Origin: an uncultured Pedosphaera sp. | GTDB lineage: Bacteria > Verrucomicrobiota > Verrucomicrobiia > Limisphaerales > Pedosphaeraceae | NCBI GenBank assembly: GCA_903918755.1 | Contig: CAIXFN010000081.1 | Location: 124,001 to 188,000, forward strand | Reading direction: 5' to 3' | Length of the DNA stretch: 64,000 nt | In this document: piece by piece, positions 16,975-63,530 of the stretch | Layout of the letters: the number at the start of each line of letters is the position of its first letter | How positions within the stretch are numbered: position 1 is the first letter of the stretch | Position numbers and translations under genes: made by a program | Notes under the pieces: generated by a model | What the model was told of the DNA's origin: nothing | The model's input: the letters and a program-made list of their open reading frames with translations, nothing else | The model's database searches: none

Positions 16975-17742
16975 ATGCACTTGTCGCCGCGCGAAATTGA
17001 CAAACTGTTACTGCACAACGCCGGTTTCCTGGCCCAAAAGCGGCTGGCCCGCGGGGTGCGCCTCAACTATCCCGAAGCCGTGGCGCTCATCGCCACCCAG
17101 TTGCTGGAATTCATCCGTGACGGCCGGCGGGTCGCTGAATTGATGGATCTGGGCCGCCGCTTCCTCGGGCGCAATCAGGTCATGCCCGGCGTCCCCTCCA
17201 TGGTTGCCGAGGTGCAGGTGGAAGGCACCTTCCCGGATGGCACCAAGCTGGTTACCGTCCATCATCCCATCGCCGCGGAAAACGGGGATCTGGCCCTGGC
17301 CCTCTACGGCAGTTTCCTGCCCGTGCCTGGGTTGGCCGCCTTCCCCGCCGAAGCCACCGAGGCGGAACTGGAACCCGGCGCCTGCACGCCCCTGCCTGGC
17401 GACCTGGAATTGAACGCGGGCCGGACCAGCATCAGCCTGGCGGTCACGAATCTCGGCGACCGCCCGGTGCAGGTCGGCAGCCATTATCATTTTGTTGAGA
17501 CCAATGCCCGTCTCCAGTTTGACCGCGGCCGGGCCTATGGTCGGCGGCTCGATATTCCGGCCGGCACCGCCGTCCGCTTCGAACCGGGCGAAACCAAGAC
17601 CGTGCAATTGGTGGAAATCGCCGGGCACCGCATCATCCGCGGTGGCAATAATCTGGCCGATGGTCCCGTCACTCCCCAAAACCTCGCGGCCATGCTGGTC
17701 CGGGTTCAGGAACAAGGGTTTGCCCATCAGGAGGAGAAATAA
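16975..17742 (+). CDS. ureAB: Urease gamma-beta fusion subunit
   Basis: The 255-residue protein joins both small urease subunits. Residues 1-100 are the gamma subunit ([40 protein letters not shown]). From about residue 133 the beta subunit follows ([32 protein letters not shown], then [22 protein letters not shown]). The linker of about 30 residues includes [17 protein letters not shown]. Fusion of gamma and beta is known from Helicobacter UreA; most free-living bacteria keep them separate. With UreC it builds the cytosolic enzyme that hydrolyses urea to ammonia and carbamate. It is followed by ureC after four bases. Confidence 0.95.
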
Positions 17743-17746
17743 TCTT

Positions 17747-19459
17747 ATGGCCCGCCCCATGAAACGCTCGCACTACGCCGACATGTTCGGCCCCACCACC
17801 GGTGACCGCCTGCGCCTGGGCGACACCTCACTGATTCTCGAGGTGGAGCGCGACCACACGGTTTACGGCGATGAATGCAAATTCGGCGGTGGCAAAGTCC
17901 TACGCGAAGGCATGGGACAGGCTGCCGGCGTCGGCCAGGCCGAAGCCCTCGATTGTGTCATCACCAATGCCCTGGTGCTGGATTACACCGGCATTTACAA
18001 GGCGGATGTCGGCATCAAGAACGGGTTGATCGCGGGCATCGGCAAGGCCGGCAATCCGGATGTCATGGCCGGCGTCACCCCTGGCATGATTTTCGGAGTC
18101 ACTACAGAAGTGATCGCCGGGGAGGGGCTCATCCTGACCGCCGGCGGGCTGGACACCCACATCCATTACATTTGCCCGCAGCAGGCCTACGAAGCGATCG
18201 CCGCCGGCCTCACCACCATGATCGGTGGGGGCACCGGCCCCGCCACCGGGACTTGCGCCACGACCTGCACCCCGGGCGCGCATCATCTCAAGATGATGCT
18301 TCAGGCCACCGACGGTCTCCCATTGAATTTCGGGTTTACCGGCAAGGGCAACACCTCGCTGCCGGAAGGGCTGGCGGAACAGATCATCGGCGGGGCCATC
18401 GGCCTGAAACTCCACGAGGACTGGGGTACGACCCCGGCGGCCATCGACTGGTGCCTGCGCCTCGCGGATCTGCACGACGTGCAGACGACCATCCATACGG
18501 ACACCTTGAACGAATCAGGTTTTGTGGATGCCACCATCGCGGCGATCAAGGGGCGCACGATTCACACCTACCATTCGGAAGGCGCGGGCGGCGGCCACGC
18601 CCCGGACATCATCCGCATCTGCGGCGAGCCCAATGTCCTTCCCAGTTCCACCAATCCCACCCGCCCCTATACGGTCAACACCATCGACGAGCATCTCGAC
18701 ATGCTGATGGTTTGTCATCATCTGGATCCCAGCCTGCCGGAGGACGTGGCATTCGCGGAAAGCCGTATTCGCGGTGAGACCATTGCCGCCGAGGATATCC
18801 TGCATGATCTCGGCGCCATCAGCATGATGAGTTCCGACTCGCAGGCCATGGGTCGCATCGGTGAAGTGATCACCCGCACCTGGCAGACGGCGGATAAGAT
18901 GCGCCGCCAGCGCGGTCCGCTGCCCGGCGATTCCGGCCATGACAATGGCCGGATCAAACGTTACCTCGCCAAATACACCATTAATCCGGCCATCGCGCAC
19001 GGCGTTTCGCACGTCGTCGGCTCCATTGAGGTGGGCAAACTTGCCGATCTCGTTTTGTGGAAACCGGCCTTTTTCGGGGCCAAACCGGAAATGGTTATCA
19101 AAGGCGGGATCATCGCCTGGGCGCAGATGGGCGACCCGAATGCCTCCATTCCGACGCCGCAACCGGTGTTCATGCGCCCGATGTTCGGCGCCTTCAGCAC
19201 CGCGCCGGGCCCGATCTCCCTGAGCTTCGTCAGCCAGATCTGCAAGGATCGCGGCACCGTGGCAAAGTTTGGCCTCACCAAACGAATCGAAGCCGTGCGG
19301 GGCTGTCGCAATCTGGGTAAGCGCCATATGAAATGGAACGACGCCCTCCCGCGCATCACCGTCGATCCGGAAACCTACGAAGTCCGCGCGGATGGCGAAT
19401 TACTGGTGTGTGAGCCGGCGCTCGTTCTGCCGCTCGCGCAACGTTACCACCTGTTCTGA
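17747..19459 (+). CDS. ureC: Urease alpha (catalytic) subunit
   Basis: The 570-residue protein contains every active-site residue, offset by four from Klebsiella numbering: nickel ligands His138, His140, His250, His276 and Asp364, the lysine to be carbamylated Lys221 (GLKLHEDWG), and the flap Cys323-His324 in MVCHHLDPS. The N-terminus [20 protein letters not shown] is diagnostic. It hydrolyses urea with a dinickel centre matured by UreDFG. The ATG at 17747 follows AGGAGGAG about a dozen bases upstream, and ureF starts four bases after the stop. Confidence 0.98.
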
Positions 19460-19463
19460 GGCC

Positions 19464-20177
19464 GTGCCCGGACGCACTCCCAGCATTGCTCCGGCACCGC
19501 CCGCGCCGCCGGCGGGTGGTAGCCCCGACTGGCTGCTCTGGCAATTGGCCGATTCTGCTTTCCCCACTGGCGGATTTGCGCACTCTGGCGGACTCGAAGC
19601 CGCCTGGCAAAACGGGGAACTGCGCAACCGGACGGAGGTTCAGGGGTTTCTGGAAACCAGCCTGGCCCAGTTTGGCCGTGGATCCCTCCCTTTCGCCACG
19701 GCCGCGCATACTGCTCCCGCGCGCTTGGCGGAACTCGACGCCCTGTGCGATTGCTTCACGTCCAATCACGTCGCGAATCGTGCCAGCCGCGTCCAGGGCC
19801 AGGCGCTGATCGCGTCCGCCGTCCGGATTTTTGGCACCCCGGAACTCGCGTGCCTGCGCCCGCCCACGGCCCCGCCCTGCGCCCATTTCGCGCCGGTCTT
19901 TGGTGTGGTGGCCCGCACCTTGGGGCTAAATCGGACGGCCACCGCGCGGGTGCTCTTGTTTATGCACCTGCGCGGCCTGATCGCCGCGGTGGTGCGCCTG
20001 GGAGTGGTCGGACCGTTGGAGGCCCAGGGACTCCAGCACCGCCTCGGGCCGGTGGCCGAATCAGTCCTGGTCCGTTGCCAGGATTTGCCCGTGGAAGAAA
20101 TCGCCCAAACCGCCCCCCTGCTGGATCTCTGGCAGGGCACCCAGGACCGGCTCTATTCCCGTCTTTTCCAGAGTTAA
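19464..20177 (+). CDS. ureF: Urease accessory protein UreF
   Basis: The 237-residue product has the UreF signature [30 protein letters not shown], a helical body with [12 protein letters not shown] and [15 protein letters not shown], and the C-terminal [14 protein letters not shown]. UreF bridges UreD and UreG and gates GTP-dependent nickel insertion. The GTG at 19464, four bases after the ureC stop, is chosen. The first 15 residues after it are Pro/Ala-rich, so a slightly later start is possible. ureG follows after seven bases. Confidence 0.94.
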
Positions 20178-20184
20178 AACCGCC

Positions 20185-20937
20185 ATGAACCCATCCGAAC
20201 CGCATTCCCACCCGCATCACCACGGCGACGGCCATGACCACGGCCACACCCATGAACACCTGGATCATCCCGGCCATTTCCATGACCGCGAGCAACCCCT
20301 CAGCCGGGATTTTCATCAACGGGCCTTTACCGTCGGGGTCGGCGGCCCCGTAGGCAGCGGCAAGACCGCCCTGATGCTCGCCCTCTGCCGGAAACTCCGG
20401 GACCGCCTGAACATCGCCGCCGTGACCAATGACATCTTTACCAAGGAAGACGGCGAATTTCTCATTCGCCACGACGCGCTTCCCGCCGAACGCATCCGGG
20501 CGGTCGAAACCGGCGGCTGTCCGCACGCCGCCATCCGGGAGGATATCTCCGCCAACCTGCTCGCCCTGGAAGATCTCCAGCACCATTTCACTCCCGAATT
20601 GATGCTCCTGGAATCCGGCGGCGACAACCTGGCCGCCCATTTCAGCCGCGAACTGGCCGATTACACGATTTACGTCATCGACGTGGCCGGCGGCGACAAA
20701 ATCCCCCGCAAAGGCGGTCCCGGCATCACGCAATCCGATCTGCTCGTGATCAATAAAACCGACCTCGCCGCCGCCGTGGGCGCCGATTTGGCCGTGATGG
20801 AACGCGATGCCAAATTGATGCGCGGCGATGGCCCGTTCGTCTTTTCCCAGGTCCGTTACAATCAGGGAGTGGATGCCATCATTTCCCATGTCATCCACGC
20901 CTGGCAACACGCCACCGCGGTCGCCCATCATCACTGA
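20185..20937 (+). CDS. ureG: Urease accessory GTPase UreG with histidine-rich N-terminus
   Basis: The 250-residue protein has the P-loop [13 protein letters not shown] (51-63), the nickel-binding Cys-Pro-His motif ([11 protein letters not shown]), [30 protein letters not shown] and the guanine-binding INKTDLA. The first 33 residues carry 13 histidines in HxH and HHH arrangements, and the C-terminus ends AHHH. GTP-bound UreG dimers donate nickel to apo-urease through UreFD. Because no ureE is present in the window, the His tail may store or collect nickel; this is inference. It is the last recognisable gene of the operon. Confidence 0.96.
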
Positions 20938-21009: not shown

Positions 21010-21130
21010 GTGCTTCTGCATTGTGCCGTCCTGGCGCGAGGTGGCCGGCGATGAATGCCGATTGTCCTCGGGAAAGAATTCGCATTTTCCATTGAACCTT
21101 TTCTCGCCGCGCGCCTTCCACTGGGTATAG

Positions 21131-21685
21131 ATGCTGTCCGTGCCTGAATGCGAACAACTGCCGGTGTCCGAAGCCCGGTCCGGTGATCCGGACGCCTGGG
21201 ACACCCTGTTCCGCCGTTATCAACTGCCGCTTTATGTGTATGCCTGTGAACTCGTCCATGACCAACAAGCCAGCCTGGACATTGTGCAGGAAACGTTCAT
21301 CGCCGCCTCCCGCCACCTCGGCACTCTCCGCGAGGACGCGAAGTTCGGTTCCTGGTTGTTTGGCATCGCCCATCAGAAATGCGGACACCATTGGCGCAAA
21401 CGGGGTCGTGAACAGGAATTCGCTTCCGGGCAGGCGGCGGAACCGGAGGAATTTGAACCGGCCCCCAGCGAATACCTTATCCGTCGCGAACAGGAGGAGG
21501 AATTTATGAAACAGGTGGCCCGGCTCCCCCTGCCCCAGCGCTCGGTGCTGCTGCTGCACTTCATCGAGGAATTTCCGCTCGCGGAAATCGCCGCCATCAC
21601 GGGCGCCCAACTCGGCACCGTCAAATCCCGATTGCATTACGCCAAGCAAGCTCTCCGCGAACTCCTCACCGAAAGGATCCCATGA
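21131..21685 (+). CDS. ECF-type RNA polymerase sigma factor (cassette 1)
   Basis: The 184-residue protein has region 2 (DTLFRRYQLPLYVYACELVHDQQASLDIVQETFIAASRH) and region 4 (LPLPQRSVLLLHFIEEFPLAEIAAITGAQLGTVKSRLHYAKQALREL) of extracytoplasmic-function sigma factors, with no regions 1 or 3. It should redirect RNA polymerase to a small regulon, often its own operon. Its TGA overlaps the ATG of the next gene (ATGA at 21682), so translation is coupled. The following gene is not a recognisable zinc-type anti-sigma factor. A parallel arrangement occurs at 36402-39410. Confidence 0.92.
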   Translation: MLSVPECEQLPVSEARSGDPDAWDTLFRRYQLPLYVYACELVHDQQASLDIVQETFIAASRHLGTLREDAKFGSWLFGIAHQKCGHHWRKRGREQEFASGQAAEPEEFEPAPSEYLIRREQEEEFMKQVARLPLPQRSVLLLHFIEEFPLAEIAAITGAQLGTVKSRLHYAKQALRELLTERIP

Positions 21686-22086
21686 AATCCCCCCGTGAAA
21701 TCTTGCTCGAACGTCATCGCTCCGCCGTCCCGGCGCTCGACGAAATCCGACGATTGGTGACCGCCCCGGACGCCGTCATCCCAAAATCGCGGACCAGCCT
21801 GCTGACCACGCTCTGGCAGGAACTGTTCGTTTGCGTTCGGCCTGTTTGGGCGGGCCTGGCCGGGATCTGGGTGGTGATAGTTTGGTTGAACCTCCCCGTT
21901 ACGGAGGCGCCGCTCCGCCCGATCGCCACGCTTCCGTCGCTCGCGACCCCCGACTCCCGGATCGCCCTCCGGGAGCAGCGACAACTTTTCTCGCAACTTC
22001 TTGAGCTTAGCCCGGTCTCACTAAGTGAGCCGGTCTGGCATTCCGGCCCGCGCGGTGCCACCGGCGCCACCTGGGCCACGGGCTGA
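21682..22086 (+). CDS. Single-pass membrane protein paired with ECF sigma factor (cassette 1)
   Basis: The 134-residue protein has a cytoplasmic-looking N-terminus (1-50), one membrane segment near VRPVWAGLAGIWVVIVWLN (52-70) and a short outer part with LREQRQLFSQLLEL (96-109). It shares P..WAGLA.(I/T)WV.I..LN and LREQ(R/Q)Q with the 142-residue protein at 38466-38894, which is likewise downstream of an ECF gene. It may be the anti-sigma partner, but the HxxxCxxC zinc motif of classical anti-sigma factors is absent. The role is inferred from position. Confidence 0.7.
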   Translation: MKSPREILLERHRSAVPALDEIRRLVTAPDAVIPKSRTSLLTTLWQELFVCVRPVWAGLAGIWVVIVWLNLPVTEAPLRPIATLPSLATPDSRIALREQRQLFSQLLELSPVSLSEPVWHSGPRGATGATWATG

Positions 22087-22101
22087 ACCTAAACCATTTA
22101 T

Positions 22102-23631
22102 ATGACAAAATCCGACTCCGCACCCTCGCTCCGCTGGCGCCTGCTCCGCTGGGGCTTTATCGGCCTCGCCATCCTCATCACCCTGCTTGCCCTGACCTGG
22201 GGGGAGGAAAACACCCGCGGCCGTCACCAGTGGGAAGGCTACCAGCGCCGGTTGCTGGCCGCCGGGGAAAAACTGGATCTCGCCTCCTTCGTCCCGCCGC
22301 CGGTGCCGGATGAGCAAAATTTCGCGATGACCCCATTTCTGGCGCCGTTGTTCGACTTCCGACCGGACCGGCAGCCGGGGGAATCCGCGTGGCGCGACAC
22401 GAACGCCCTGAACCGGGCCAACAGTTTTGCCCGCGTGCTGGGAAGTCCCAAGAGCAACGGCGAGGGGCGCGATAACCGGCGTATGGTTGACCTGATCAGC
22501 CGTTCGGCCGCGATGGCGGAAGCAGCCAAACGCGAGGGCGCCCCGCCTCCGGACCGGGCCGCCGCCGCCCGGCAGATCATCGCGGATCTGCAGTCGAGCC
22601 AGCCGGTAATCGACGAAATCCGCGCCGCCGCCCAGCGCCCGTATGCCCGCTTTAACATCCGTTACGGTGATGGGCCCGCCACCTTGCTGCCGCACTTGGC
22701 CGTCATGAAGGGCCTCGCCAACCTCTTGCATCTCCGTGCCCTGGCGGAACTGGAACTCGGCCAATCCGATGCCGCTATCGCCGATCTCGCGTTGGTGCGG
22801 AGGACGGCCGACGCCATCCAAAACGAGCCTTTTTTGATCTCCGGCCTGGTCCGCCTGGCCATCATCCAATTGGAACTTCAGCCCATCTGGGAGGGTCTGG
22901 CCCAACATCGCTGGTCGGACGCGCAACTAGCCACTTTGCAAACCAACCTGGGCCGGATCGATCTGCTGGCGGATTATGCCCACGGGATGCGGGGAGAACG
23001 CGCCGGGTGCAATGAAATGCTGACCAAAATGCGCACCCACAAAGGGAATGAAATCGATCCCGCCACCGGATTCGACAATCCCGCTTACTACGCCCTCCCC
23101 GGGGGATGGCTCTATCAAAACCAGCTCGTCATCAACCGGATGCACCAGGACGTGATCCTGGCGGGAGTCGATCCCGTCGCTCAACGCGTTGACCCAGCGC
23201 TTTACACCGATGATTCCGCCCTGACCCGGGAACTGAACTCCGGTTTCATGCCTTACAAAATTCTCGCCCGCTTGCTCCTGCCGGCCGTCAGCAAGTCCGC
23301 GCTCAAATACGCCTATGGCCAGACCGGGGTAAACGAGGCTATCGTGGCCTGCGCCCTGGAGCGTTACCGCCTCGCGCATGGCGAGTTCCCGGAAAAATTG
23401 GACGCGCTCACTCCCACCCTGGTGGCGCGACTCCCGCATGACCTCATCGAGGGCGAGCCCTTGAAATACCGCCGCCTCGCCCCCGACCATTTCCTGGTGT
23501 ACTCGATCGGTTGGAACGAAAAGGACGACGGCGGCGTTCCCGGAGACATCAAGAAAAGCACCAGCAACACCCAACACCCCGACACCACCACCGGTGATTG
23601 GGTCTGGGACAGCGCGGCGGTAGCGAAGTAA
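22102..23631 (+). CDS. Membrane-anchored hypothetical protein of the ECF cassette (cassette 1)
   Basis: The 509-residue protein has one N-terminal membrane segment (16-33) and a large, helix-rich, presumably extracytoplasmic part. Blocks shared with the 679-residue protein at 36402-38441 are PVPDEQNFAMTPFLAPLFDF (67-86), LLPHLAV with ALAELELGQSDAAIADL, LQPIWEGLAQHRWSDAQL, and near the end YSIGWNEKDDGG with GDWVWDSA. The ELELGQSDAAIADL stretch is TPR-like. The function is unknown. It starts 15 bases after the small membrane protein and closes the operon. Confidence 0.7.
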   Translation: MTKSDSAPSLRWRLLRWGFIGLAILITLLALTWGEENTRGRHQWEGYQRRLLAAGEKLDLASFVPPPVPDEQNFAMTPFLAPLFDFRPDRQPGESAWRDTNALNRANSFARVLGSPKSNGEGRDNRRMVDLISRSAAMAEAAKREGAPPPDRAAAARQIIADLQSSQPVIDEIRAAAQRPYARFNIRYGDGPATLLPHLAVMKGLANLLHLRALAELELGQSDAAIADLALVRRTADAIQNEPFLISGLVRLAIIQLELQPIWEGLAQHRWSDAQLATLQTNLGRIDLLADYAHGMRGERAGCNEMLTKMRTHKGNEIDPATGFDNPAYYALPGGWLYQNQLVINRMHQDVILAGVDPVAQRVDPALYTDDSALTRELNSGFMPYKILARLLLPAVSKSALKYAYGQTGVNEAIVACALERYRLAHGEFPEKLDALTPTLVARLPHDLIEGEPLKYRRLAPDHFLVYSIGWNEKDDGGVPGDIKKSTSNTQHPDTTTGDWVWDSAAVAK

Positions 23632-36401: not shown

Positions 36402-38441
36402 TCACGGCTTGGGTGCCGGTGTGCGCCACACCCAATCCCCGGCTTCGGGGCGATCGCTCATCTGACGGTAAGGGAATGGGTAGTGCCCTTCGGGATCATA
36501 TTTTACCACGGCGCCGCCATTATCTTTTTCGTCCCAACCAACGGAATAGAGAAGGAAACCGCCATCCTTGGTCCGTTGGTAGTGGAGAGGTTTGCCGGAG
36601 ATGATGTCCGTGGGGATCAGATTCATAAACTTCGGGGACAATGCCGCCAGCCCAGCAGGGTATTCGCCGGTGGCCTGGCGGTGGAGTTCAAGGGCACCAG
36701 CGATCCGGGCAAGGTCGAGGTCAGTTTGCGCATGGACGAATTGCGCAGGTGCAATGACGAAGCCACCCACCGCCACACAAACCCAGTTTTCGTGCCGCAC
36801 CTGGCTCGCGAGGAAAGCGGCATTGGTCCGGACCATCGCAGGATAGGCCCGACGCTCGCCCGCTTGGACAACCGGTAAAATCCGTTCATACATCGCGCGA
36901 CTGGCAAAGAGCTTATTCTCGTCAAAGACGCCCGCCGGCAGGTAGGGGAGGAGAAAATTCCACAGCGGAGAAATGACACCTTGGTTCGCCGTATTAAATT
37001 GGGCCATGGTGGCAAATGCCTCCCGCTCCCGCTTACAATGATCCAGCCAGGCATTGACAAAGGCTGCCTCGACGCGAGCCGTCCGGCCGTAGTCTGCCAG
37101 CAAATCAAAACCTCGGAGGGCGGCATCCAGGCGGGCAAGCTCCACGGCCGACCAACGATGATCGGCCAACCCTTCCCAAACCGGTTGCAAGGATTCCTGG
37201 ATGATCCGCAAGCGGACGAGTTGGGAAATGATCGTGGCATCGGATTGGATGGTGTCGGCGAGCCGCAGGGCCGACTCCAAGTCCGCCAGGGCCGCAGGGC
37301 TCTGACCGAGTTCCAACTCCGCCACGGCGCGCAAATCGAGCATGGCGGCGACTTGCCGGATCACGGCGAGATGCGGCAGCAGCGCGCCTTCCACCTGCTC
37401 ATAGTGAATGGGAAAACGGGAGTGCGGCAGCTTGGCGGCTTGTTGCAGTTCAGCGATTTCCGGCGCGAACTTGGTGAGCGCGAGCACAATGTCCGCCGCA
37501 GGCGATTGGGCCGCCTTTGTCCGGGGCCAGAATGAGGGCGTCTCCGGTTCAGTCTCGGGCGAAGGGCCAGCCGGGTCATTGGTCCCTGCTCCCGGGGTGG
37601 GCGCGGAGTTGGTTCCCAGATGGGCAGGCTGCCGTGTACCGGGACGGGACAAAACGTGGGTGTTGCTCCCGGTTGAGCCCGAGGAGGCCGGGCGCCAAAC
37701 ATAACGCCGAGTGGACGCATAGTTGGTCCCCCGAAAAAAGATTTGCCACTCCGCCAGCTTGAGCCGTTCACCCTTGTCCCAAAGCATGGTGGCCGGGGCG
37801 GTTTGCGCTCCGGGACGACCCGTCAGACTGACATTCCAGACGCGTTGATATGCGTTGGTGTCGCGCCAGTTCAGGGTTCGTCCGGAACCATCGACCTCGT
37901 AATCCAATAGCGGTTTGAGCATTGGGGTTAGCGCAAAATTCTGGTTCTCGGGCACCGGCGTGGGGATGAAATGATCCAGCTCCACGAACTCGCCCTGCGC
38001 GGCCATGCCCTGCCGATAGGCATTCCAGGCACGGCGGGCCCGCCAGTTTTCGACGGCATACCCCAGACCAATCAAGGTAACGAGGGCCGCCAGGCAAAAC
38101 AGGTTGCGCCGGATTTTATGCCAGCCCACGAACCAACCAATCCCCTGCTCCAACCGCACAACCATTCGGGGGGCCGGATCTTGGGACGGCAATTCCGCCA
38201 ACGGCCGGCGCCAGGCGCGGCGCAGCGGAATGGCCGTGCCTACCACGAGCGTCGCGATGATGAACGCGATCACGGGTACGAGCGGCTCGCCGACCTGCTG
38301 GTTTGATCCCTGCTCAACGACAATACAAAACAGCATGCCGCCAACCGCCCCCAGGAGGCACAGCAACAGCAACCAGAAGAGCAAGCGCCACCATTTGACG
38401 ACCCGCCGGTTTTCATGGCGGATCAGGAAAGGAATATTCAT
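36402..38441 (-). CDS. Large membrane protein of the ECF cassette (cassette 2)
   Basis: The 679-residue protein has three N-terminal membrane segments (about 17-42, 53-72 and 113-130), then a large extracytoplasmic-like part paralogous to the protein at 22102. Shared blocks are PVPENQNFALTPMLKPLLDY (162-181), LLPHLAV with AVAELELGQSPAALADL, LQPVWEGLADHRWSAVEL, YSVGWDEKDNGG and GDWVWRTP. A low-complexity Thr/Pro/Gly insert (around SAPTPGAGTNDPAGPSPETEPETP) is absent from cassette 1. The function is unknown; it starts 24 bases after the small membrane protein gene. Confidence 0.7.
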   Translation of the reverse strand: MNIPFLIRHENRRVVKWWRLLFWLLLLCLLGAVGGMLFCIVVEQGSNQQVGEPLVPVIAFIIATLVVGTAIPLRRAWRRPLAELPSQDPAPRMVVRLEQGIGWFVGWHKIRRNLFCLAALVTLIGLGYAVENWRARRAWNAYRQGMAAQGEFVELDHFIPTPVPENQNFALTPMLKPLLDYEVDGSGRTLNWRDTNAYQRVWNVSLTGRPGAQTAPATMLWDKGERLKLAEWQIFFRGTNYASTRRYVWRPASSGSTGSNTHVLSRPGTRQPAHLGTNSAPTPGAGTNDPAGPSPETEPETPSFWPRTKAAQSPAADIVLALTKFAPEIAELQQAAKLPHSRFPIHYEQVEGALLPHLAVIRQVAAMLDLRAVAELELGQSPAALADLESALRLADTIQSDATIISQLVRLRIIQESLQPVWEGLADHRWSAVELARLDAALRGFDLLADYGRTARVEAAFVNAWLDHCKREREAFATMAQFNTANQGVISPLWNFLLPYLPAGVFDENKLFASRAMYERILPVVQAGERRAYPAMVRTNAAFLASQVRHENWVCVAVGGFVIAPAQFVHAQTDLDLARIAGALELHRQATGEYPAGLAALSPKFMNLIPTDIISGKPLHYQRTKDGGFLLYSVGWDEKDNGGAVVKYDPEGHYPFPYRQMSDRPEAGDWVWRTPAPKP

Positions 38442-38465
38442 GGTAGATAAATCGGGTTGCCAGTT

Positions 38466-38894
38466 TCAAACCCACGCGAAAGACCCGGTCCGGCTGCCGC
38501 GTGGTCGCGGCATAAAACCCGATGGCGGCTCGACCGCCTCTGACTCCTGCGGCATTACGAGGCGCAGCAATTCCTGCTGCTGTTCCCGCAATACCAGTAT
38601 CAAAGCGGGAGATGTCGGAGGACCGTTCTTCGCCACCGCCACCGGCTCCTGATTGGCGGAGGCGTGATTCAGCGCGGCGATGGCGACCCAGGTGGCAGCC
38701 AGGCCCGCCCAGGCTCCCGGGTGCGGCCAGAACAATGCGGCCAACCCGCCCAAACCGGAGCGCTGGGGAACCGGTGCGGCCGCCGTCGAACGAACGTTTT
38801 TCGCAGCAGTCGCCAGTATCACCCGTCGCCATTCCGATGGAAGGGATCGCAGGGACTGCTGCCGCAATTGGGATTCAAAATCTTCGGGATTCAT
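38466..38894 (-). CDS. Single-pass membrane protein paired with ECF sigma factor (cassette 2)
   Basis: The 142-residue protein has an N-terminal segment FESQLRQQSLRSLPSEWRRVILATA, one membrane segment near AWAGLAATWVAIAALN (61-76) and a following LREQQQELLRLV (102-113). It is a paralogue of the 134-residue protein at 21682, with the same order of parts. It begins three bases after the ECF stop, so cotranslation is likely. It may be the sigma regulator, but no zinc motif is present. Confidence 0.7.
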   Translation of the reverse strand: MNPEDFESQLRQQSLRSLPSEWRRVILATAAKNVRSTAAAPVPQRSGLGGLAALFWPHPGAWAGLAATWVAIAALNHASANQEPVAVAKNGPPTSPALILVLREQQQELLRLVMPQESEAVEPPSGFMPRPRGSRTGSFAWV

Positions 38895-38897
38895 AGC

Positions 38898-39410
38898 CTA
38901 ATGGATCTGGTCATAAAGGGGACGCAGCCGCGCGCGCAATTTGTCTATGCCATAGCGATAACGACTCGCCGCGGTATTCGGGGAAAGTTCCAGGGTGGCC
39001 GCAATCTCCTCAAACGTGAGCCCCGCCCATAATTTCAAATGGACCACCGCCCGCTGGTCGGGCGGGAGTTCGTCCAGCGCCGCCGTCAATCGCTGGCGAA
39101 ACTCGGCGGTGTCGGGATTCTCCGCCGGGGCAAACAGGGCCACGGACTCGGCCGCCAATTGTTCATAATGCCGGTGCCGGGTTCCCTGCCTTCGCATCAA
39201 GTCGATGGCCAGGTTGTGCGCCAGGCGCAGGAGGAATGCCCGCGGTTCCCGCACTCCGTCCAGCAAGTCGGGGTTGCGGGCCAATTTAATGAACAACTCC
39301 TGGAGCAGGTCGCGGGTGTCCGCCTCGTGGCGGGTGAGGTTCAGCAGGAAGCCAAACAACACCGGGGCATGCTCATCGTAGAGCTGCGCGAGGTCAGGTT
39401 GGGCCGGCAT
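38898..39410 (-). CDS. ECF-type RNA polymerase sigma factor (cassette 2)
   Basis: The 170-residue protein has region 2 (LYDEHAPVLFGFLLNLTRHEADTRDLLQELFIKLARNPDLL) and region 4 (LPPDQRAVVHLKLWAGLTFEEIAATLELSPNTAASRYRYGIDKLRARL). ATG 39410 is preferred over TTG 39422. Its sequence is only distantly related to the ECF at 21131, although the downstream genes of both operons are homologous. It likely reads its own operon and a small regulon. Confidence 0.9.
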   Translation of the reverse strand: MPAQPDLAQLYDEHAPVLFGFLLNLTRHEADTRDLLQELFIKLARNPDLLDGVREPRAFLLRLAHNLAIDLMRRQGTRHRHYEQLAAESVALFAPAENPDTAEFRQRLTAALDELPPDQRAVVHLKLWAGLTFEEIAATLELSPNTAASRYRYGIDKLRARLRPLYDQIH

Positions 39411-39488
39411 GTTCACAAGCAAGACGCCCGTCGCCGGCGGATTTGTCTAAATTTTGGGAGAGCGCCAGCCATCCCCTTCCGACAGGAC

Positions 39489-62584: not shown

Positions 62585-63424
62585 TTAAAAGCGCGTGGGA
62601 CGGTCGATCTTTGCGGAACTCTTGGACTGCAACCAGTCGATGTCCAAATTATTGGGGGAAGGAAAACCATACCCCTTGGGCAGGGTCGTCCGGTGATCCC
62701 GCCATTTGTGAATTTCCGAGTGGCCATCCGCGAACGAGAAGCTGCCCGCGATATTGTGATACGTGGCTGGCACATCGGTGGTCTGCTTGCCGGGCATGTT
62801 GTTCGGGTCATAGGTATCCATGTCCGTGGCAAAAAAGCCGTCGTTGATGCTCAAACCTTCGTCCAGGATTACAAACGTGTTCGATGGGCCGGGGCGCTTC
62901 AGGTCGGAGGATTTCTGATACCCGAAATATCCCGGCGTCCAGTGGTTGCCACCGTTGCCATCCGAACCAATATAAGAATTCATGGAAACACTGCGGGCGC
63001 AACGCCGGCCGATGTAGGGGGCGACGGTGCATTTGCGGGGATCCCCCGGGCATTGATAAACCCCGACATTTTGCCCCAGATATTTTCCCAGCATCTCCTT
63101 CGGCAACCCGTTGTTCAAATCCAGAAAATTGGCGGGGTTGCCGGGGTCGGAAACGTCCCCGACCAACCAGGCCCGGGAATCGGGGAGAAATTCGTTAAAA
63201 TCACCAGAATAATTGATCCACGCCAGCGTGAGTTGCCGGGTGTTGTTCATGCACTGAATCCGTTGCGCGTTAATCTTGGCCTTGGCCAGGGCTGGCAGCA
63301 GCATCGCGGCCAGAATGGCAATGATCGCGATGACCACGAGCAATTCGATCAGCGTGAAACCACCGACGGCATGGTGCCTGGGATTTGGGCACAAAACTGG
63401 GCTGCAATTGCTTCTGTGATTCAT
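62585..63424 (-). CDS. Type II secretion pseudopilin-like protein (DUF1559-like)
   Basis: The 279-residue protein has a prepilin leader and cleavage/methylation site [29 protein letters not shown] (from about residue 22), then a large C-terminal domain with [37 protein letters not shown] and [14 protein letters not shown], as in the abundant verrucomicrobial DUF1559-like proteins. It would be cut after Gly by a prepilin peptidase and inserted into a pseudopilus or the membrane. It is the first gene before GH92, apparently cotranscribed. Confidence 0.88.
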
Positions 63425-63530
63425 CAGGTCAGTTTACCATCCTCCGTTGCCCGAGGCAACTGGCACGTTGGAACTATATTCCAGAAATTGCCGGGCACCG
63501 CCCCGAATTCCGGGCACCTTTGGAGCCAAC

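Follow-up and report, generated by a model that had tools for sequence, protein, structure and literature searches.

Three-gene ECF sigma factor operons with a chimeric, probable anti-sigma factor and a pseudopilin-like partner in Pedosphaera-related Verrucomicrobia

Among described regulatory systems, the closest in plan to the one reported here appears to be CnrYXH of Cupriavidus metallidurans, in which the ECF sigma factor CnrH is accompanied by the zinc-less class II anti-sigma factor CnrY and by CnrX, a membrane-anchored periplasmic sensor. The class I systems RpoE-RseA-RseB and SigW-RsiW likewise unite an ECF sigma factor and a membrane anti-sigma factor in one autoregulated operon, and EcfG is paired with NepR, a soluble, two-helix anti-sigma factor controlled by PhyR. 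The class II anti-sigma factors CnrY and NepR embrace their sigma factor from outside (PMC8103513). The trio described below shares with CnrYXH its three adjacent genes, a short, single-pass and zinc-less putative anti-sigma factor (P2) and a membrane-anchored periplasmic third protein (P3). It differs in that P3 is far larger and pseudopilin-like, with no sequence relation to CnrX and no match to it in a PDB sequence search, and in that there are three kinds of anti-sigma N-half and a swapped input half; the gene order differs as well. The likeness to the class I systems is limited by P2 types A and B, in which the zinc motif of class I is missing and no match to a class I family was found, and by P3, which was unrelated to RseB in all searches made. 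Unlike NepR, P2 is membrane-bound. The original prediction regarded the locus as a candidate for an undescribed signalling system. No description of the trio was found in a literature search of incomplete coverage, while the general kind (ECF sigma factor, membrane anti-sigma factor, periplasmic partner) is known; out of the ordinary, as far as found, are an anti-sigma factor of chimeric make-up, an input half that is exchanged, a partner that resembles a pseudopilin and a promoter embedded in a sigma gene.

Two such trios lie in the window, the whole 64,000-nucleotide stretch of DNA that was analysed: operon A at 21131-23631 on the forward strand and operon B at 36402-39410 on the reverse strand. 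Each probably combines a gene switch (the sigma factor), a probable membrane-bound restrainer (P2) and a large, outside-facing membrane protein (P3). As to layout the original prediction held throughout, with both trios present where claimed, all of the quoted P2 and P3 sequence motifs found in both operons and neighbouring genes overlapping or nearly touching (Table 1). Both sigma factors carry regions sigma2 and sigma4 above the Pfam cut-offs and these two regions only, as defines an ECF, and they are indeed only distantly related (26% identity, E 5e-8). P3-A and P3-B are clear paralogues (34% identity, E 3e-87 by BLASTP), and the similarity of P2-A to P2-B (34% over 53 aa, E 4e-5) is confined to the C-terminal half. 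No family in Pfam or NCBIfam matched either P2 or either P3. The sigma-B gene starts with ATG, and a TTG 12 bases upstream is a possible alternative. In the source genome (7.19 Mb, 118 contigs, 58 Sigma70_r2 matches) the two operons are the sole places of the P2 C-half, and distant P3 relatives without P2 occur on contigs C71 and C28. Urease genes (ureC-like, ureF-like and ureG-like by sequence; 17492-20937, +) stand directly upstream of operon A, with no sign of a functional link.

Table 1. Features of operons A and B in the window
Feature	Position	Strand	Remarks
Predicted sigma-A self-promoter, TTGAACCTTTTCTCGCCGCGCGCCTTC	21092..21118	+	12 bases before the sigma ATG; 1 mismatch to the motif
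Type-A ECF sigma factor	21131..21685	+	Sigma70_r2 1e-13, Sigma70_r4_2 7e-13
P2-A	21682..22086	+	overlaps sigma-A by 4 bases (ATGA); lies between sigma and P3
P2-A landmarks			type-A N-half ..PREILLERHRSA..LDEIRRL; TM helix and common periplasmic half from ~21817
P3-A	22102..23631	+	membrane-anchored periplasmic protein; helical domain and putative GspG-like C-terminal domain
Predicted sigma-B self-promoter, TAGACAAATCCGCCGGCGACGGGCGTC	39423..39449	-	exact motif match
Type-B ECF sigma factor	38898..39410	-	Sigma70_r2 5e-13, Sigma70_r4_2 2e-11
Second predicted sigma-B promoter, TAGACAAATTGCGCGCGCGGCTGCGTC	38921..38947	-	exact; in the sigma-B coding sequence, 26 bases before the P2 ATG
P2-B	38466..38894	-	3-base gap after sigma-B; assigned by C-half similarity and sigma-P2 chain model
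P2-B landmarks			type-B N-half DFESQLRQQSLRSLPSEWR..IL; TM helix and common periplasmic half from ~38741
P3-B	36402..38441	-	like P3-A, plus N-terminal extension and central insertion

Searches from both sides show that the trio is a real unit conserved across the order (Pedosphaera/Limisphaerales, 'subdivision 3' Verrucomicrobia). P3 relatives, distant members included, were present in 55 of 58 related genomes. In 79 loci drawn from GTDB genomes, 84 P3 genes had 1.8 kb or more of sequence on their upstream side; 65 of these were preceded by both an ECF gene and P2, and 18 by neither. An independent search with the P2 C-half, which gave new loci, detected it in 65 of 116 genomes from the order against 7 of 289 across the phylum; an ECF gene upstream together with P3 downstream was seen at 56 of 61 such places, and P3 at 59 of 61. 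Outside the order, the four credible C-half matches all sit in trios as well. Late iterations of the P2 profile drew in shifted-frame reads of sigma genes, which were left out by stricter thresholds, and the majority of the genomes compared were metagenome-assembled (MAGs). Homologues of P2 and P3 thus mostly adjoin ECF genes, rather than standing mostly away from them as the original prediction had named as grounds for giving it up. About one fifth of the P3 genes (the 18 of 84) stand alone in varied contexts, so P3 can presumably act without this sigma factor and P2. Some loci depart from the common arrangement. One P2 place without a separately detected ECF gene (L196:2506-3204, -) holds sigma-A and P2 as one reading frame in which the end of sigma region 4 is lost, by fusion or by assembly frameshift. 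The order distant P3 relative, ECF gene, zinc-finger anti-sigma gene recurs identically in two species (L013:5215-7800, on contig C28 of the source genome, and L074:7700-10340). At L066:3-3988 an ECF sigma factor fused to a multi-helix membrane domain is followed by P3, which here appears to go with yet another kind of sigma factor, without P2.

P2 proteins proved to be chimeras, with three unrelated kinds of N-half on one common half that comprises the TM helix and periplasmic tail. Type A is marked by PREILL.RH....LD.IR and type B by FE..L.RQPLR.(I/V)P.EWR..IL, and type C is the zinc-finger anti-sigma domain zf-HC2, above cut-off and at up to 42 bits. Profiles of the N-halves gave no match across types, whereas profiles of the C-half (TM helix to end) matched across types in 34/35, 28/28 and 7/7 cases, with none of about 8000 background ORFs reached at E<1e-3. 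In a sigma tree that also included 45 further ECFs from the same genome, type-A sigma factors formed one clade of 27 (support 100/99) and type-B sigma factors a clade of 34 (99/74); these clades are not sisters, and type-C sigma factors fell in two places. In every one of 112 trios the nearest-neighbour sigma factor had a matching P2 N-type, and because of this match P2 is very probably an anti-sigma factor. Its cytoplasmic half is the part expected to bind sigma, since it changes with the sigma factor and is a known anti-sigma domain in one of the three kinds. The original prediction stressed that the membrane partners lack a zinc motif. This stands for P2-A and P2-B of the window, where no zf-HC2 match (HxxxCxxC) was found, and fails as an argument against anti-sigma function, given the zf-HC2 domain of type-C P2s and given that the motif is missing from about 44% of class I anti-sigma domains, zinc-less anti-sigma factors being common (PMC7406223).

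A structure model of sigma-B with P2-B is consistent with this assignment. The two genes are in frame, one stop and one codon apart, and were folded as a continuous read with TAG taken as Gln, a modelling device that implies no read-through; the resulting artificial chain was modelled from six paired rows and read out as secondary structure and pLDDT. Within this artificial chain, P2 residues 181-200 reached a pLDDT of about 95 and P2 formed helices at 177-183 and 192-210. The sole strand residues were 93 and 187, the former in the linker between sigma2 and sigma4 and the latter in P2; since the model holds no others, these two would pair as a beta-bridge between P2 and the sigma linker. The modelled sigma-B appears to take the closed form seen in anti-sigma complexes, with best fits to RpoE/NepR (Z 17.1, the best and the likeness to EcfG-NepR), SigW/RsiW (14.7) and CnrH/CnrY (13.0), whereas RNAP-bound ECF sigma factors differed from it by an rmsd of 21-28. 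The structure prediction that had been suggested for this pair is favourable as far as the confident P2 N-region, the bridge and the closed sigma factor go, in an artificial chain read for secondary structure and pLDDT.

Comparison of the regions upstream of the operons, as had been proposed, gave each sigma type its own motif. The type-A motif TTGAACCTTT-N12-CATTC was detected in 37 of 41 type-A operons at a constant distance, mostly 12 bases before the start codon, and the type-B motif TAGACAAAT-N13-GCGTC in 54 of 58 type-B operons, also at a fixed distance. Shuffled sequences yielded no comparable motif pair, with at most 5/41 (A) and 8/58 (B). The site of operon A has the -35 element TTGAACC and the -10 element CCTTC in place of the consensus CATTC. 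At up to one mismatch, the A site of operon A is unique in its genome, and exact B motifs are confined to operon B; a regulon search of that genome gave no above-chance target apart from the operons, other B matches being as many as the control's. Among the 58 relatives, exact A sites precede type-A sigma genes except at L264 and L267, where they precede prepilin genes (N_methyl and TIGR02532 above cut-off). Each sigma type thus seems to have its own self-promoter with ECF-type -35 and -10 elements and hardly any other strong sites. Self-promoters as such are ordinary, because autoregulation is predicted for about 55% of ECFs (PMC8103513).

A second predicted type-B promoter lies within the sigma-B gene, where it encodes ..IDKLRARLRP.., a peptide conserved among relatives as (L/I)DKLRxRLRP. 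The site was present at up to one mismatch in 55 of 57 type-B genes, and relatives repeatedly show pairs of B sites spaced by about 502 bases. Its first codon ended in -TA in 54 of 57 genes, compared with 3.5% of other Leu/Ile codons (p ~8e-75, a value that overstates significance in treating loci as independent). The following codons were similarly restricted: Asp was GAC in 56/56 (63% elsewhere), Lys AAA in 55/56 (58%) and Arg CGT in 56/56 (8%). Because codon choice departs so far from background, above all in -TA and CGT, the motif appears to be kept by rare codons and to be no mere by-product of the conserved peptide. The simplest reading of this predicted promoter is negative feedback, with extra P2 and P3 made once sigma is active. 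In most type-A operons no internal promoter was found; the internal scan of these gave three exact matches, which could come from a site nearby or upstream that the scan picked up.

The third gene had been described as encoding a large membrane protein. P3 is membrane-anchored, and P3-A is not polytopic: its AF2 model (pLDDT 92.4, pTM 0.92) shows a helix at residues 10-53 leaving the membrane, a helical domain, a long helix at 396-426 and a small sheet, that is, one helix and a large periplasmic part. The N-terminal extension of P3-B adds about two hydrophobic segments by sequence, and relatives also have long P3 frames (714-776 aa). The C-terminal helix and small sheet appear to resemble the pseudopilin GspG of type II secretion. 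T2SSG (PF08334) was the commonest family match, found weakly in 48 of 91 P3 family members at E<=0.5 (best 4e-4) and not in P3-A itself, and the three best PDB sequence matches of P3 were all GspG chains, each weak (E 0.13-0.22). P3 differs from GspG in its large extra helical domain and in the absence of a prepilin cleavage/methylation motif from the N-termini of P3-A and P3-B. Foldseek with the whole protein found no PDB match at E<=0.001, and VIA-align returned only common helical-repeat arrangements (Z<=9). At L066 a prepilin-like gene lies directly upstream of the ECF-P3 pair. At L304:104-1889 (contig C110 of the source genome), the ECF gene closest to type A precedes a reading frame of 403 aa, which joins a cytoplasmic portion to about two membrane helices and a complete prepilin/DUF1559-like portion (GFTLLELLMVIALLGV.., ..CDGH), possibly an anti-sigma factor fused to a pseudopilin. 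The window itself has a prepilin-like gene at 62588-63433 (-). Prepilin-like genes are abundant in this phylum, so single neighbours of this kind mean little. Since the C-terminal domain of P3, the additional A promoters at L264 and L267, the L066 neighbour and the C110 frame agree, pseudopilus- or secretion-related sensing serves as a lead and first hypothesis.

We consider it likely that each operon is a self-contained transmembrane switch in which P2 is the anti-sigma factor, P3 its sensing partner, and output and input cassettes have been re-paired. The cytoplasmic N-half of P2 would hold the cognate sigma factor closed, its single helix would cross the membrane and its short periplasmic tail would act as receiver for P3, which is the probable sensor. 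A signal would cause P3 and P2 to release sigma, and freed sigma would transcribe its own operon from the type-specific promoter; in type B, the internal promoter would supply extra P2 and P3 and limit the response. From sequence, this model draws on the order and conservation of the genes, the occurrence of three kinds of N-half with a single C-half, the matching of types, the exchange and the promoter motifs; within it we infer the anti-sigma activity, the role of P3 as sensor, P2-P3 contact and promoter activity. Counting against it, hardly any sigma targets were found outside the own operon, leaving the physiological output missing. That same scarcity would make P3 the main target of sigma and so favours a different arrangement, in which P2 senses by itself and P3 is an envelope- or secretion-related output switched on by sigma; P3 also occurs alone, and its C-terminal domain is pseudopilin-like. 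A mere output should track sigma and its promoter, however, whereas the inheritance of P3 seems to follow the periplasmic half of P2. When trios of unlike type are compared, distances for the P2 C-half correlate with those for P3 at 0.39 (the largest of 300 within-type shuffles reached 0.19) and with those for sigma at 0.07. This correlated inheritance may reflect linkage rather than contact. We regard P3 as output as unlikely.

In the transmembrane switch as we propose it, the output cassette would consist of promoter, sigma factor and P2 N-half, the input cassette of P2 C-half and P3, and evolution would re-pair the two, joined inside P2. On trees of 112 trios, type labels changed twice for sigma (the minimum), 23 times for P3 and 24 times for the P2 C-half. 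The nearest neighbour was of the same type in 87 of 112 trios for P3 (about 46 expected by chance) and in 85 of 112 for the P2 C-half; P3 thus seems to retain some memory of type. Trios of different type often adjoin, as B-A in L044, L054 and L076 and as a tandem of three, B-A-C, in one genome (L047:2042-10736), which may offer the occasion for exchange. We also considered vertical divergence of ordinary paralogous ECF/anti-sigma operons, with P3 exchange as tree error from short, saturated or chimeric MAG sequences. In favour of this reading, the P2 C-half is poor in both columns and strong forks, the P3 trees come from quick methods, and MAGs supply many of the sequences. Nevertheless, the P3 tree requires no fewer than 6-7 changes for A and B when only strongly supported forks are counted (10-13 in an earlier tree of 92 rows), P3 is 72% identical between one type-C and one type-A trio whose sigma factors are 25% identical, and vertical divergence would not by itself place unrelated N-halves on one C-half; we judge it improbable. 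The data point instead to repeated swapping of P2 C-half and P3 between unrelated sigma lineages, for which the joint would have to lie inside P2, near the membrane helix. The original view of membrane modules kept while sigma factors diverged captures the shared C-half and P3, and needs correction in that the P2 N-half switches kind with sigma while C-half and P3 are exchanged. That P2 might be a membrane tether or activator needed by sigma, which the lack of any anti-sigma family match in type A and B P2s would permit, is very improbable given the zf-HC2 domain in the same place in type-C P2s and the closed sigma factor of the sigma-B/P2-B model.

A broader and tentative hypothesis, which we hold to be possible rather than probable, is that these are order-wide plug-and-play circuits in which pseudopilin-derived periplasmic sensors of pseudopilus- or secretion-type assembly have been re-plugged onto unrelated ECFs by recombination within the anti-sigma gene, and in which the coding sequence of one sigma type holds a promoter for its own restrainer. 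How new signal-output pairs originate is a general question in bacterial signalling, and the domain swap seems here to have been run many times, one membrane receiver being combined with three unrelated sigma-binding heads and the joint lying within one small protein. The natural chimeras would provide a ready set for testing anti-sigma/sigma specificity and the transfer of a periplasmic signal through the membrane. The predicted promoter kept by rare codons in a sigma gene offers a clear case, open to testing, in which coding and regulation overlap, and roles are suggested for two unannotated families in a widespread, hardly studied bacterial group.
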